The position numbers were made by a program, and so were the translations under genes. Under the pieces are notes generated by a model. It did no database searches. It was not told the origin of the DNA and worked only from the letters and a program-made list of their open reading frames with translations. A DNA stretch of 64,000 nt, from NCBI GenBank assembly GCA_017858515.1, contig JAFMBM010000001.1:1-64000 (forward strand), in the 5' to 3' direction. This stretch comes from Cryomorphaceae bacterium (lineage in GTDB: Bacteria > Bacteroidota > Bacteroidia > Flavobacteriales > Schleiferiaceae). Shown here in pieces: positions 42,340 through 48,965 of this stretch (position 1 is its first letter; every line of letters begins with the position of its first letter).

Positions 42340-43923
42340 ATGTCTATTTCGAAGTTTCTCTTACTCCTTCTCTCAATGTCTTTTTTGGGTTTGAGATCAC
42401 AAAACCTCCAGTTTGCGAATTCGAGTTACTCTTTCGCTAGAACGACTGAGTTAGGGGTAGATTCTGTTTTGGTTGAAATTATAAATTCAGGTATCGAAAA
42501 TTTGCGTATCAAACGCATTCATTTTCAAGATGTTTTTGGAAGTCAGCCCTTTTCAACGTCTTTGAATTCCTTAGGATTAACTGCTCAACAGACATCAAGC
42601 CTAAAGCTTTTCTTTCACCCCAGTCATAATATCGCTCATTCACTTCCAATTGTTTTTGAGACCGATAGTTTTTATGGCTGCCTTGTTTATGAAGCAAGCG
42701 GACAAGGTGCTTTTTCGAATTCCTATTATAATTCTACCGAGAATCTTTCAAGTACGGCGCTTTTCAATGCGCTTAAGGTTAGAATTTCATCGCCTTATAA
42801 CAGCCTAAGTTACGATGGGGCTAGAGACGAAATGTACGGTGATGTAGACAATAGTGGTGGTCAAGTTACTTGTGTTTATACAGGTCGTGTGGCAACATTC
42901 AACAGTCGTTCTGGTGCAAATAGCAATAATTTTAATACCGAACATACTTGGCCACAGTCTCTTTTCAATAGTGCAAGTCCAATGAAGAGCGATATTCATC
43001 ATCTTTTTCCAACCGATGTAACAGCCAATAGTCAGAGGGGGAATTTACCTTTTGGCGTAGTAACTGGTTCTCCTTCATGGCAGCAAGGTGGTTCTAAAAT
43101 GGGGGGAGGTAAGTTTGAACCAAGAGATGTGCATAAGGGAACAGTAGCTCGTGCTATGATGTATTTTGTTCTTCGCTATCAGAATTACTCCAACTTCTTC
43201 GATGGCAACCAAGAAACCACTTTATTGAACTGGCACTCGGCTTTCCCACCATCCGCGCAAGACAAGGCTCGAAACAATGAAATTCAGCAGCTACAATCCA
43301 ACCGAAACCCGTTTACAGATTATCCTCAATTTGCAGATAGAATGGGATTGTTGTCGCAGAATGGGGTTTTGTCTGCGGATAAGTCATGGGTGTTAATGCC
43401 AGATACCATTGTTCTAAGACAAGGAGTTGTGGCCAATGCGGTAATCTATAATTCGGGAAATCAATCTTTGAATATCAATTCGATTCAATTGGTTGACACA
43501 AACTTTAGTTACACTCTTAACGGATCTATGACTATTGGAGTAGGTGAGTATAGAACCATTTCTATTGAATTAAAGCATCCCATTCAAACCCAATCACAAA
43601 TGGTCTTGCAAACCAACAGCAATGTGCAGGTTGCGGAGAGTGTTTATTTAAAATCAATTACTAGAAATGGAATTGGATTGAATGAGCTAGCTAGCCTAAA
43701 ACCCGTTTTATTTCCCAATCCATCAAAAGGCCAAGCTCAAATTCGTTGGGAAGGAGAGCAATTCGGTTATGAAGTTCTTGATTTCCAGGGTAGAGAAGTG
43801 TTTCACTCGAATAATTCCTCTAGGAATGAGGCTGTACTTCCACAATTAAAAGTGGGCATTTACACTGTAATTATTCGAAGTGTAAGTGGCCGATTTGCAG
43901 TTGAAAAATGGATCCTCTATTGA
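42340..43923 (+). CDS. Secreted endonuclease I with T9SS sorting domain
   Basis: Exported nuclease of 527 aa. Signal 1-20 (LRS-Q), an immunoglobulin-like segment (about 20-125), the Endonuclease I domain (PF04231 type, about 135-345) with NTEHTWPQS (about 199-207) and SDIHHLFPTDVTANSQRGN (about 217-235) that hold the metal and catalytic His, another beta-rich segment, and a C-terminal T9SS type-A sorting domain starting at LFPNPSKG (about 457). Role: extracellular DNA digestion, for nutrients or biofilm DNA. Convergent overlap of 7 nt with the DUF192 gene. Confidence 0.92.
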   Translation: MSISKFLLLLLSMSFLGLRSQNLQFANSSYSFARTTELGVDSVLVEIINSGIENLRIKRIHFQDVFGSQPFSTSLNSLGLTAQQTSSLKLFFHPSHNIAHSLPIVFETDSFYGCLVYEASGQGAFSNSYYNSTENLSSTALFNALKVRISSPYNSLSYDGARDEMYGDVDNSGGQVTCVYTGRVATFNSRSGANSNNFNTEHTWPQSLFNSASPMKSDIHHLFPTDVTANSQRGNLPFGVVTGSPSWQQGGSKMGGGKFEPRDVHKGTVARAMMYFVLRYQNYSNFFDGNQETTLLNWHSAFPPSAQDKARNNEIQQLQSNRNPFTDYPQFADRMGLLSQNGVLSADKSWVLMPDTIVLRQGVVANAVIYNSGNQSLNINSIQLVDTNFSYTLNGSMTIGVGEYRTISIELKHPIQTQSQMVLQTNSNVQVAESVYLKSITRNGIGLNELASLKPVLFPNPSKGQAQIRWEGEQFGYEVLDFQGREVFHSNNSSRNEAVLPQLKVGIYTVIIRSVSGRFAVEKWILY

Positions 43924-45601: not shown

Positions 45602-45612
45602 CCGGCTTGTCT

Positions 45613-46386
45613 ATGAGCCTACTTAAAAAAGACGTTTTTGGTAATGTCCTCTTATTAAAGAGGCTGATCATCTTCATATTTGGAGCGGTAACTTATTATC
45701 GTTTTAATATGGCGAATAGAACCGTTGTACGTGGGTCGGAAGTTTTAAAAGGTCTTCCAGACACAAAGGTTCTATTTGTGAGCAATCACCAAACTTATTT
45801 TGCCGATGTTGCAGCCATGTTCCATGTTTTTGGTGCGGCCAAATGGGGCGTTTATAACCGAATAGATTTTTTTTGGCATCTATTCAACCCGAGATTAAAC
45901 ATCTATTTCATTGCAGCTTTGGAGACAATGAAAAAAGGCATTTTACCTCGTTTGTTTTCGCATGTAGGTTCTGTAAGCATTAAGCGGACTTGGCGGGAAG
46001 CGGGAAAGAATATTGATAGAAGCGTAGATCCACGGGATGTAAAAAAGATAACCACGGCAATAGAAAATGGATGGGTAATTACATTTCCTCAAGGAACAAC
46101 CAAACCGTTTGTGCCTGGAAGAAAGGGTACGGCCAAGATTATAAAGGAATACAAACCAATTGTCATACCCGTTGTTGTAAATGGTTTTAGAAGAGCCTTT
46201 AACAAGAAAGGGCTTCTTATGAAGAAACGAGGCTGTACTCTTTACGTTACCATAAAAGAACCGCTTGATATCGACTATGATCAAACACCTGATTTTATCT
46301 TAAAACAAATCATGGAAAGCATTGAGCAGACTGAAAATTTTGTTCGTCCGAAGAAATTAAGACACAGCCAGAACACAGAAGCTTAA
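45613..46386 (+). CDS. Lysophospholipid acyltransferase-like protein with HX5D motif
   Basis: PlsC-type acyltransferase (257 aa) with N-terminal membrane segment (about 14-30). The catalytic box reads NHQTYFAD: His59 and Asp65 are five residues apart, while the family has HX4D. Motif III is FPQGTTKPF instead of FPEGTRS. Motif IV-like IVIPVVVNGF follows. Probably transfers an acyl chain to a lysolipid or glycerol-type acceptor, but the changed spacing makes substrate and activity uncertain. A TTG in frame at 45607 exists; ATG 45613 fits better with the promoter. Confidence 0.78.
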   Translation: MSLLKKDVFGNVLLLKRLIIFIFGAVTYYRFNMANRTVVRGSEVLKGLPDTKVLFVSNHQTYFADVAAMFHVFGAAKWGVYNRIDFFWHLFNPRLNIYFIAALETMKKGILPRLFSHVGSVSIKRTWREAGKNIDRSVDPRDVKKITTAIENGWVITFPQGTTKPFVPGRKGTAKIIKEYKPIVIPVVVNGFRRAFNKKGLLMKKRGCTLYVTIKEPLDIDYDQTPDFILKQIMESIEQTENFVRPKKLRHSQNTEA

Positions 46387-46445: not shown

Positions 46446-46453
46446 TAAATTTG
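46446..46453 (+). promoter_or_regulatory. TAnnTTTG box giving a probable leaderless MbnP operon mRNA
   Basis: TAAATTTG, 5 nt before the ATG at 46459; a TTTG at 46416 is 26 nt upstream, too far for the normal spacing. Confidence 0.42.
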
Positions 46454-46458
46454 AAATT

Positions 46459-47232
46459 ATGAAAAGTGATGCACTAAAATTTGGATTTTTTCTTTCTCTA
46501 ATCAGCCTCTTTTTTGTGGCCTGCAATAAGGATATTTCTGTAGGGGGTGGCGATGATACAGATAATCGGAATGTGCATATAGCGCCCTATTTCACGTATA
46601 ATGGAAATCCGTTTTCAAGCGATTCCGTTTATTTCGACAGCTTTGGAAACCGTTTTGTTATAGATAATGTACAAATTGTCATATCTAATTTTTTCATTGT
46701 TGGACAGGGAGATACCGTATCCGATCCCAATTCTTTTAACGTATTGAACTTTACAGATCAACAGTTTAAAGTCTTGAAACTGCCAAAAGGAACGTATTCA
46801 GGATCTTATGGTTTTACTATTGGTTTAGATTCTCTCACAAATGCCAGATTGCCAGGTAGTTTTCCTTCTTCATCGGGTCTTACTGACCCAATGTTATATA
46901 GAGGTAAAAAGCCGTTTTATTTTGGATATAAATTTCTTTTAATAGAAGGGCGTGTCTTCAATCCACTCGGACTGGATACGGTTGGTCCTAGTCACTTTTT
47001 TAGCTACGAGTTAGGCGATTCTTTGACATTGACAAGAACAAGACAAAAGAGCTTTACGGCAAGCAACGACAAACCAATTGTCTTTGAAGTACGTTTTGAT
47101 CTTGCAGATATGCTCGAACCTTTTGATTTGTTTTTCTCTGATACAATCCGCACAGACAGACGCTTTTTAGATGATTATGCAGATGCACTTTTACTAAGAC
47201 AATATTTAGATACCGCTATAACACCTTTTTAA
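46459..47232 (+). CDS. Divergent MbnP-like lipoprotein
   Basis: A 257-aa lipoprotein (signal 1-21, lipobox FVAC, Cys22) resembling MbnP-family proteins: NVHIAPYFTYNGNPF start, IDNVQIVISNFFIVG (strand typical of the family), GLDSLTN and YKFLLIEGR. It lacks the HPL...MYWTW region that the neighbour has, being replaced by DPMLYRGKKPFYFGYKF, so the redox-active Trp position is not preserved. A frame extending from a TTG at 46417 was rejected: the ATG carries the lipoprotein signal. First gene of a three-gene operon. Confidence 0.72.
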   Translation: MKSDALKFGFFLSLISLFFVACNKDISVGGGDDTDNRNVHIAPYFTYNGNPFSSDSVYFDSFGNRFVIDNVQIVISNFFIVGQGDTVSDPNSFNVLNFTDQQFKVLKLPKGTYSGSYGFTIGLDSLTNARLPGSFPSSSGLTDPMLYRGKKPFYFGYKFLLIEGRVFNPLGLDTVGPSHFFSYELGDSLTLTRTRQKSFTASNDKPIVFEVRFDLADMLEPFDLFFSDTIRTDRRFLDDYADALLLRQYLDTAITPF

Positions 47233-47233
47233 A

Positions 47234-47995
47234 ATGAAAACTTGGTTTCCTTCCGTCGGCCTATCGTTACTCACTTTACTAACTATGGCTATGTCTTGTG
47301 AATCGACGAAGGAAGTTAAGGACAGTTTTATTGAAATAGTTCCTGAAGCTACCTTCGGTGGAACCATAGAAGGATTCAATAATCCAAACCCGATCAATGG
47401 ATCTACCGATGTTCTTATTTCAGAGTTGAAGTTTTATTTATCTAAAATTCGAGCTGTTGCCTCAGACGATAGAGAGTATGCTTTAGTAGATTATTGTTTT
47501 TTCGATTTTCGAAATCCTGATTTCGAGAAATACCGGGTAAAACTACCCGAAGGAGTTAACATAAAAGGTTTAAGAGTAAATGTTGGCTTAGATTCGACAC
47601 AGAATTATTCAGATCCTGCTAGTTTTAATCAGGCTCATCCACTCAGCGCTGCCAGAGGGATGTATTGGACTTGGGCTACTCAATATCGTTTTTTGTTAAT
47701 CGAAGGAAAAGCGAATCAAACTAGTCTCATTGGATCTTCAACAGACCAAGGGATTAGCTATCATCCAGGCGGAAATCACCTATATGTTGAGGATGTATTT
47801 CTGCCCCTCAACTTAGGAGTTGGCAACGGTTCAACACGCACTGTTATGCTTAAATTGGATGTAAATCAGTGGTTTAATGGGATTTCGGGCACAATAGATC
47901 CACTTACCGAATCAAATGTACATGCCGCCCCTGAAGATCAGGCTCTGGGCAAGAGGTTTATCGAGAATTTCTCTGCGTCTATGCGATTGCAATAG
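47234..47995 (+). CDS. MbnP-family lipoprotein
   Basis: A 253-aa lipoprotein (lipobox MAMSC, Cys22) matching the MbnP family, copper-binding partners of MbnH-type dihaem peroxidases. Seen: ELKFYLSKIRAV (about 64-75), GLDSTQNYSDP (118-128), HPLSAARGMYWTWATQYRF (135-153 with His135, Trp145 and Trp147), YHPGGNHLY (176-184 with His177 and His182) and ENFSASM near the C-terminus. In methanotrophs MbnH oxidises a Trp of MbnP to kynurenine, which helps bind copper; the presence of Trp here permits the same reaction. Starts 1 nt after the first MbnP gene. Confidence 0.82.
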   Translation: MKTWFPSVGLSLLTLLTMAMSCESTKEVKDSFIEIVPEATFGGTIEGFNNPNPINGSTDVLISELKFYLSKIRAVASDDREYALVDYCFFDFRNPDFEKYRVKLPEGVNIKGLRVNVGLDSTQNYSDPASFNQAHPLSAARGMYWTWATQYRFLLIEGKANQTSLIGSSTDQGISYHPGGNHLYVEDVFLPLNLGVGNGSTRTVMLKLDVNQWFNGISGTIDPLTESNVHAAPEDQALGKRFIENFSASMRLQ

Positions 47996-48002
47996 AAATG
48001 CT

Positions 48003-48965
48003 TTGAGACAATCCGCATTTTTTTTTCTTTTAGCTTCTTTCTTTTTCCTCTTGGTTTCTTCTTGCGGTAAGAAAAAAGAGGAAGTAATAACTCAACTCAA
48101 TGAGCCCTTACCTCCACTTGTATTCCCAATTGATAACCCTATTTGGAAAGAAAAAGTAGAGCTGGGAAAAGCTCTTTTTTTCGACCGACTTCTCTCTAGG
48201 GACTCAACGATTTCTTGTTCTAGCTGTCACTTTCCTCAGTTCGCATATAGCGATACCATCCCAATAAGCAAAGGAGCTCATGGAAGAATAGGCTTTCGAA
48301 ATGCACCTGCATTATTCAATTTGGCTTGGAAACCTAGGCTCTTCAAAGACGGTGGAGTACGAAACTTAGAGCTTCAGGTACTTGCTCCTTTACTAGAGCC
48401 AAACGAGATGGATTTTGGAAGTGAAGAGCTATTGAATAGACTCGAGAAATCAGACGAATATATTAGTCTTTTTTCAAAAGCCTTTGATTCCCTTCCAACT
48501 CTAAAATTAGCTGTTCAGGCGTTGGCAAGTTTTGAACGAACTTTGATCTATAATGAATCTAAATTCGATCGTTTTTTGAGAAATGAAGTGATCCTTTTGG
48601 AGGAAGAGTTGATTGGAATGAGACTTTTTTATAGTCCTGAACTAGCTTGTAGTAGCTGTCATAAAGGTGTTTTATTCACAGACTTTCAATACCACGATAT
48701 TGGAATGCCTCCTTCTGAAGATGTGGGAAGATATAGGGTTAGTCTCGATAGTTTGGATAAGTTCAAATTTGAAACACCAAGCCTAAAGGCTGTTTCACTC
48801 TCTGCGCCCTATATGCACGATGGGTCAATTAAAGATTTGCGAGCAGTAGTGGATTGGTATAATCAAGCGGCTGAAGTAAGGAAAACCAAAGACAAGAGAA
48901 TTCGGGCCTTAAATCTAAATTCGAGTGAAAAAGATGCATTAGTAGCCTTTCTAAACTGCCTTTAG
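48003..48965 (+). CDS. Dihaem cytochrome c peroxidase, MbnH/MauG-type
   Basis: A c-type dihaem peroxidase of the CcpA/MauG superfamily (320 aa) with two CXXCH haem sites: CSSCH at 72-76 and CSSCH at 216-220. The C-terminal SAPYMHDG (268-275) keeps a Met as possible haem ligand. TTG at 48003 gives a compact lipoprotein signal ending in VSSC (Cys21), 7 nt after the MbnP stop; a longer frame from 47916 overlaps that gene by 80 nt without a signal at its start. Most likely acts on the preceding MbnP lipoproteins. Overlaps the convergent T9SS cargo by 4 nt. Confidence 0.85.
   Translation: MRQSAFFFLLASFFFLLVSSCGKKKEEVITQLNEPLPPLVFPIDNPIWKEKVELGKALFFDRLLSRDSTISCSSCHFPQFAYSDTIPISKGAHGRIGFRNAPALFNLAWKPRLFKDGGVRNLELQVLAPLLEPNEMDFGSEELLNRLEKSDEYISLFSKAFDSLPTLKLAVQALASFERTLIYNESKFDRFLRNEVILLEEELIGMRLFYSPELACSSCHKGVLFTDFQYHDIGMPPSEDVGRYRVSLDSLDKFKFETPSLKAVSLSAPYMHDGSIKDLRAVVDWYNQAAEVRKTKDKRIRALNLNSSEKDALVAFLNCL

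Follow-up and report, generated by a model that had tools for sequence, protein, structure and literature searches.

The first Trp of the WxW motif in MtMbnP is reportedly oxidized to kynurenine by MbnH, and a His and a Met residue are said to bind Cu(I). We take the PDB entries 7l6g and 6e1c to be MtMbnP and MtMbnH (a methanotroph MbnH), respectively; the latter entry is itself labeled 'Di-heme enzyme'. The MbnP/MbnH pair (TIGR04052/TIGR04039, PF20243; 7l6g, 6e1c) is widespread according to Kenney & Rosenzweig 2013 (PMC3621798). CorA/CorB and MopE/SACCP resemble it in that CorA and MopE are surface copper proteins in which a kynurenine lies close to Cu(I), and have a c-type diheme neighbor resembling MauG (PMC3912023). 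They differ in sequence, described as not markedly similar to MbnP (PMC3621798), and a paralog devoid of the site is not mentioned in the consulted passages.

The locus analyzed here lies in a 64,000-nucleotide stretch of DNA from a Cryomorphaceae bacterium (hereafter the window). As in the MbnP/MbnH pair, an MbnP-family lipoprotein adjoins a MauG-like diheme enzyme (P0003), and one MbnP homolog, termed here MbnP-b (P0002), has the WxW motif with a preceding Met and a His aligned to the His of 7l6g. Unlike in that pair, the window adds an upstream paralog without the site, termed here MbnP-a (P0001), and both P0002 and P0003 score under the equivalog cut-offs of their families. Our survey also revealed two consecutive MbnP genes next to a diheme enzyme in other Bacteroidia (L154, L156, L162), but there both copies keep WxW. 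The tandem beside a diheme enzyme occurs in other families; what is new is the ancient and conserved MbnP branch without the site. In the open literature searched we found no description of siteless MbnP paralogs, which is weak evidence, as the main MbnP structure paper lies outside it.

Organization of the locus and classification of its proteins

The locus comprises three co-directional ORFs, in the order MbnP-a, MbnP-b, diheme enzyme. These and the flanking markers are:

45607..46386, + strand: acyltransferase gene directly upstream of MbnP-a (PF01553), a conserved syntenic marker of the MbnP-a slot (cluster c1)
46459..47232, + strand: MbnP-a (P0001), 257 aa, MbnP-family lipoprotein without the WxW/copper site; PF20243; lipobox Cys22
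46891..46953, + strand: region of MbnP-a aligning with the Trp motif of MbnP-b in the alignments, MLYRGKKPFYFGYKFLLIEGR
47234..47995, + strand: MbnP-b (P0002), 253 aa, canonical MbnP-type lipoprotein with HPL, MYWTW, YHPG and the C-terminal His; PF20243
47660..47674, + strand: MYWTW (WxW) motif of MbnP-b; its first Trp, W145, is the expected kynurenine precursor
48003..48965, + strand: P0003, MbnH/MauG-type diheme c-type cytochrome, 320 aa, TTG start, two CSSCH motifs; PF03150
50129..51481, + strand: Mur-ligase-type (Mpl-like) gene, the downstream syntenic marker in most relatives (cluster c2)

The name Mpl-like, as well as the name NUDIX used below for another neighbor of the slot, is our own reading of the sequences. 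A previous sequence-only reading had assigned the three-gene set to positions 46446-48965; the set itself stands, but there is no start codon at 46446, and the first ORF begins at 46459 instead. MbnP-b starts 1 bp past the end of MbnP-a (47234 and 47232, respectively). The start of P0003 is most likely the TTG at 48003, because the longer ORF from the ATG at 47916 overlaps MbnP-b by 80 bp and displaces the lipobox inward, and because the ortholog in G003 likewise uses a non-ATG start just past its MbnP-b stop. Pattern inspection identified a lipobox Cys in each protein (FVAC22 in MbnP-a, AMSC22 in MbnP-b, VSSC in P0003), in agreement with the lipoprotein signals claimed earlier for all three. 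Elsewhere in the window, positions 42340-43923 encode a protein that combines an Endonuclease I domain with a type IX secretion sorting domain at the C-terminus and is probably a nuclease exported from the cell.

In Pfam searches both MbnP-a (42.4 bits) and MbnP-b (97 bits) score above the curated cut-off of PF20243 (27 bits), so that the profile search called for by the sequence-only reading places the two proteins in the MbnP family, as had been proposed. Among the members of the MbnP-a clade 29/43 match PF20243 at E-values up to 1, and a profile-profile comparison of the MbnP-a and MbnP-b clades yielded a full-length match (probability 99.8, 241 columns). The MbnP-b profile matches the MbnP structure 7l6g, with an alignment that spans the Met, WxW and His, and MbnP-b possesses all of these residues (M143, W145, W147, H177, H230); its NCBIfam score against TIGR04052 (MbnP_like_WxW) is 31.1 bits, under the equivalog cut-off of 140 bits. 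The corresponding search of the PDB with the MbnP-a profile gave no credible match. AlphaFold2 models built from four-row alignments reached pLDDT values of 31 and 47, too low for use, and retention of the fold rests on the sequence profiles.

P0003 matches CCP_MauG (PF03150) with 170.9 bits in Pfam, and its best PDB match is 6e1c (E-value 1.4e-38). TIGR04039 (MbnH) is its top NCBIfam family, with 221 bits, under the equivalog cut-off of 362.85 bits; this rank is not specific, because lone diheme enzymes encoded in the same genome obtain similar TIGR04039 scores. P0003 has the features that characterize MbnH/MauG-type enzymes, i.e. two CxxCH motifs and a Tyr replacing Met as distal heme ligand, in a column with Tyr in P0003 and 6e1c vs. 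Met in CcpA (6qkn). In the phylogenetic tree it groups with enzymes from the same locus of other genomes (moderate support, with 94/95 for the nearest three and 81/66 for the wider set), separately from the three lone diheme enzymes of its own genome, and not with CcpA proteins lacking an MbnP neighbor. The Tyr in the ligand column and the tree together speak against an ordinary CcpA, and the earlier assignment to MauG-type diheme enzymes holds. The Trp of the FWDG motif is replaced in P0003 (FKDG), and the enzymes of the same locus elsewhere also lack it, unlike many members of the family.

The copper/tryptophan site in MbnP-a and MbnP-b

P0002 contains both HPL and MYWTW, while P0001, in which LYRGKKPFYFGYKF aligns, has neither of them and also lacks YHPG and the C-terminal His, so the claim that only the second MbnP keeps the HPL...MYWTW region is borne out. 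Residues H135, M143, W145, W147, H177 and H230 of MbnP-b correspond to S139, L146, R148, K150, E184 and R231 of MbnP-a; the first MbnP thus lacks the Trp region, with R148 and K150 at the WxW positions. The PFYFGYKF segment noted there earlier is local: the PFYF insert occurs only in the window and in a near relative (G003), while the clade-wide pattern in its place is roughly LYRG..GY.

We compared the columns of the site between 51 MbnP sequences with the motif and 56 MbnP-a sequences. The first Trp (W145 column) is present in 51/51 of the former vs. 2/56 of the latter, none of which has WxW. The respective counts are 51/51 vs. 2/56 for His177, 49/51 vs. 0/56 for His230, 40/51 vs. 3/56 for Met143, and 40/51 vs. 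10/56 for His135. Besides the initiator Met and the Cys of the lipobox, the 43-row alignment of MbnP-a contains no column with His, Cys, Met or Trp at a frequency of at least 30%. Instead, C22, N38, G122 and G164 are invariant, and Y113, G115, G156 and F199 are also conserved. Thus, in MbnP-a the site is lost, not remodeled.

These data bear on the suggestion that MbnP-a may hold a different metal site. A transition-metal site of the usual type is rejected, as there are no conserved His, Cys or Met ligands, and the suggestion is not supported in this form. A site with hard ligands, such as one for Ca2+ formed by the backbone or by Asp/Glu, or a site made of other residues, could draw on the Asp positions D55, D85, D124, D214, D233 and D239, which are partly conserved (0.86 for D85, 0.80 for D124, 0.62 for both D233 and D239), and the argument for a non-metal role is one from absence; these Asp residues are, however, less conserved than the scaffold glycines, and we regard such a site as improbable.

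In four loci from other families of the class (L163, L167, L168, L169) we found a second group of MbnP-family members, distinct from MbnP-a, that lack WxW and have MWFG or MWMN instead, as well as HLHT near the N-terminus; no diheme enzyme was found in the neighborhood fetched.

Distribution and evolutionary history of MbnP-a

Analysis of 60 sampled genomes of the family to which the window belongs revealed MbnP-a in 57 of them, as well as in G063, a genome from a different family. A scan of genome contigs yielded a single ortholog, L049 from an uncultured Cryomorphaceae MAG of the same genus. Outside the order, the top matches of the MbnP-a profile score higher with the MbnP-b profile, hence the clade was found only in the family and in G063. 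The order of genes in the slot is largely fixed: NUDIX, acyltransferase, MbnP-a, (MbnP-b), (enzyme), Mpl-like Mur ligase, with the acyltransferase (c1) at 52 of the examined loci and the Mur ligase (c2) at 41. Counting family loci including L151, MbnP-b directly follows MbnP-a in 42/57 genomes, always in this order, MbnP-a is alone in the slot in 13, and two loci are cut by contig ends; the stop-to-start gaps are mostly shorter than 17 bp or the genes overlap. The arrangement recurs throughout the family and is far from chance. The diheme enzyme follows in only 8 of the 40 family loci where this could be judged, and additionally in G063. The peroxidase is therefore dispensable, an optional part of the locus, while MbnP-a is the constant one, and the description as an MbnP-MbnP-peroxidase operon, correct for the window, is too narrow as a single unit.

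Several genomes retain MbnP-a without the presumed partners. In G052 (95% complete) and G058 (88%) MbnP-a is alone, with no match to PF03150, TIGR04039 or a motif-bearing MbnP, and G010 has the MbnP-a/MbnP-b pair with no enzyme matching PF03150 or TIGR04039; the genomes that lack MbnH are MAGs of 88-95% completeness. The genome of the window itself encodes three further MbnPs, all with WxW and all adjoining diheme enzymes (contigs C40, C89 and C54), in addition to the three lone diheme enzymes, and MbnP-a is found at none of these loci. One could argue that MbnP-a is a dedicated partner of MbnP-b and MbnH, which docks the peroxidase or heterodimerizes with MbnP-b so as to present W145, since the two genes are adjacent and nearly overlapping in the 42 genomes, in invariable order. 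Against this speak the 13 genomes in which MbnP-b is missing from the slot, the two with neither a detectable MbnH nor a motif-bearing MbnP, and the three MbnP-enzyme couples that manage without MbnP-a in the same genome, and we find the idea unlikely, if less so than a hard-ligand metal site. Retention of MbnP-a in the absence of MbnP-b and MbnH in some genomes implies a role beyond helping those two. A scaffold, as proposed by the sequence-only reading, it may be, but not one solely for P0003, as it is kept without MbnP-b and a detectable MbnH.

One of the loci mentioned above (L015:4550-5533, contig C54) encodes a WxW MbnP whose C-terminal tail looks like a sorting domain for type IX secretion, followed by two diheme enzymes in tandem. 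One member of our alignment A2 matches Por_Secre_tail, and by sequence this is most likely the same protein.

In order to reconstruct the history of MbnP-a we relied on two trees. In the 107-row tree a single branch separates the MbnP-a sequences from the rest (support 99/93), and the same branch (100/100) is recovered in a 65-row tree that excludes the motif and N-terminal columns and includes MbnPs from other families. The trees are unrooted, and we deduce the direction of change, i.e. loss of the site, from its presence in almost every other MbnP; the member of the clade that branches first (G063) retains two of the His residues. Simple Nei-Gojobori counts gave dN/dS values of 0.05-0.075 for MbnP-a, lone copies included; in several pairs dS approached or exceeded 1. 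MbnP-a is under strong purifying selection and constitutes an old, conserved clade of single origin rather than a peculiarity confined to one peroxidase operon. The absence of the active site and the lower PF20243 score might also be expected of a duplicate of MbnP-b decaying towards loss, but a dN/dS of about 0.05, presence in nearly all genomes of the family, a deep single origin and survival without MbnP-b make this explanation extremely improbable. The selection and distribution data likewise speak against an artefact or a pseudogene.

Putative functions of the two paralogs

We consider it rather probable that the two proteins are an ancient pair of paralogs, in which MbnP-b is the working metal protein and MbnP-a a "pseudo-MbnP" devoid of the copper site. 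By analogy with the characterized pair, W145 of MbnP-b, the first Trp of WxW, would be oxidized to kynurenine by the MbnH-type diheme enzyme, here P0003, and together with Met143 and His177 would then form a Cu(I) site. MbnP-b probably serves as the substrate and carries the copper here, because its profile aligns with 7l6g over the Met, WxW and His; formation of kynurenine and binding of copper are inferred, and this chemistry is extrapolated to MbnP-b and P0003 from families whose NCBIfam equivalog cut-offs neither protein reaches.

With the Trp and every candidate copper ligand gone, MbnP-a cannot be a substrate for the peroxidase at that position, nor is it a copper-binding protein of the known kind. 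It keeps the family profile and the lipid anchor, and given the strong purifying selection we infer that its role is most likely that of a non-metal binding or structural lipoprotein. More speculatively, it might have its own ligand, or act as a partner or organizer of envelope proteins, including MbnP-b where present. The stronger proposal, that MbnP-a founds a family-wide, functionally distinct and copper-independent class of envelope lipoproteins on the MbnP fold, with its own ligand or partner and not dependent on the local peroxidase, has in our view an even chance of being right. If true, the MbnP family would not be solely one of copper and kynurenine.

Membership in MbnP is taken to mean a kynurenine-copper protein, and annotation by PF20243 alone would miscall copper binding for the siteless branch. 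MbnP-a is also a natural control, in which the family is kept and the site removed, for studies of recognition by MbnH and of roles of the MbnP fold besides copper.

In 14 genomes, which occupy one part of the tree, we also found a WxM variant of MbnP-b (L056, L061, L062, L064, L078, L084, L085, L087, L093, L094, L096, L100, L102, L106); none of these loci has an adjacent diheme enzyme. The second Trp is replaced by Met and the first Trp and the His residues are kept, and this variant offers another natural test, namely of the importance of each Trp.
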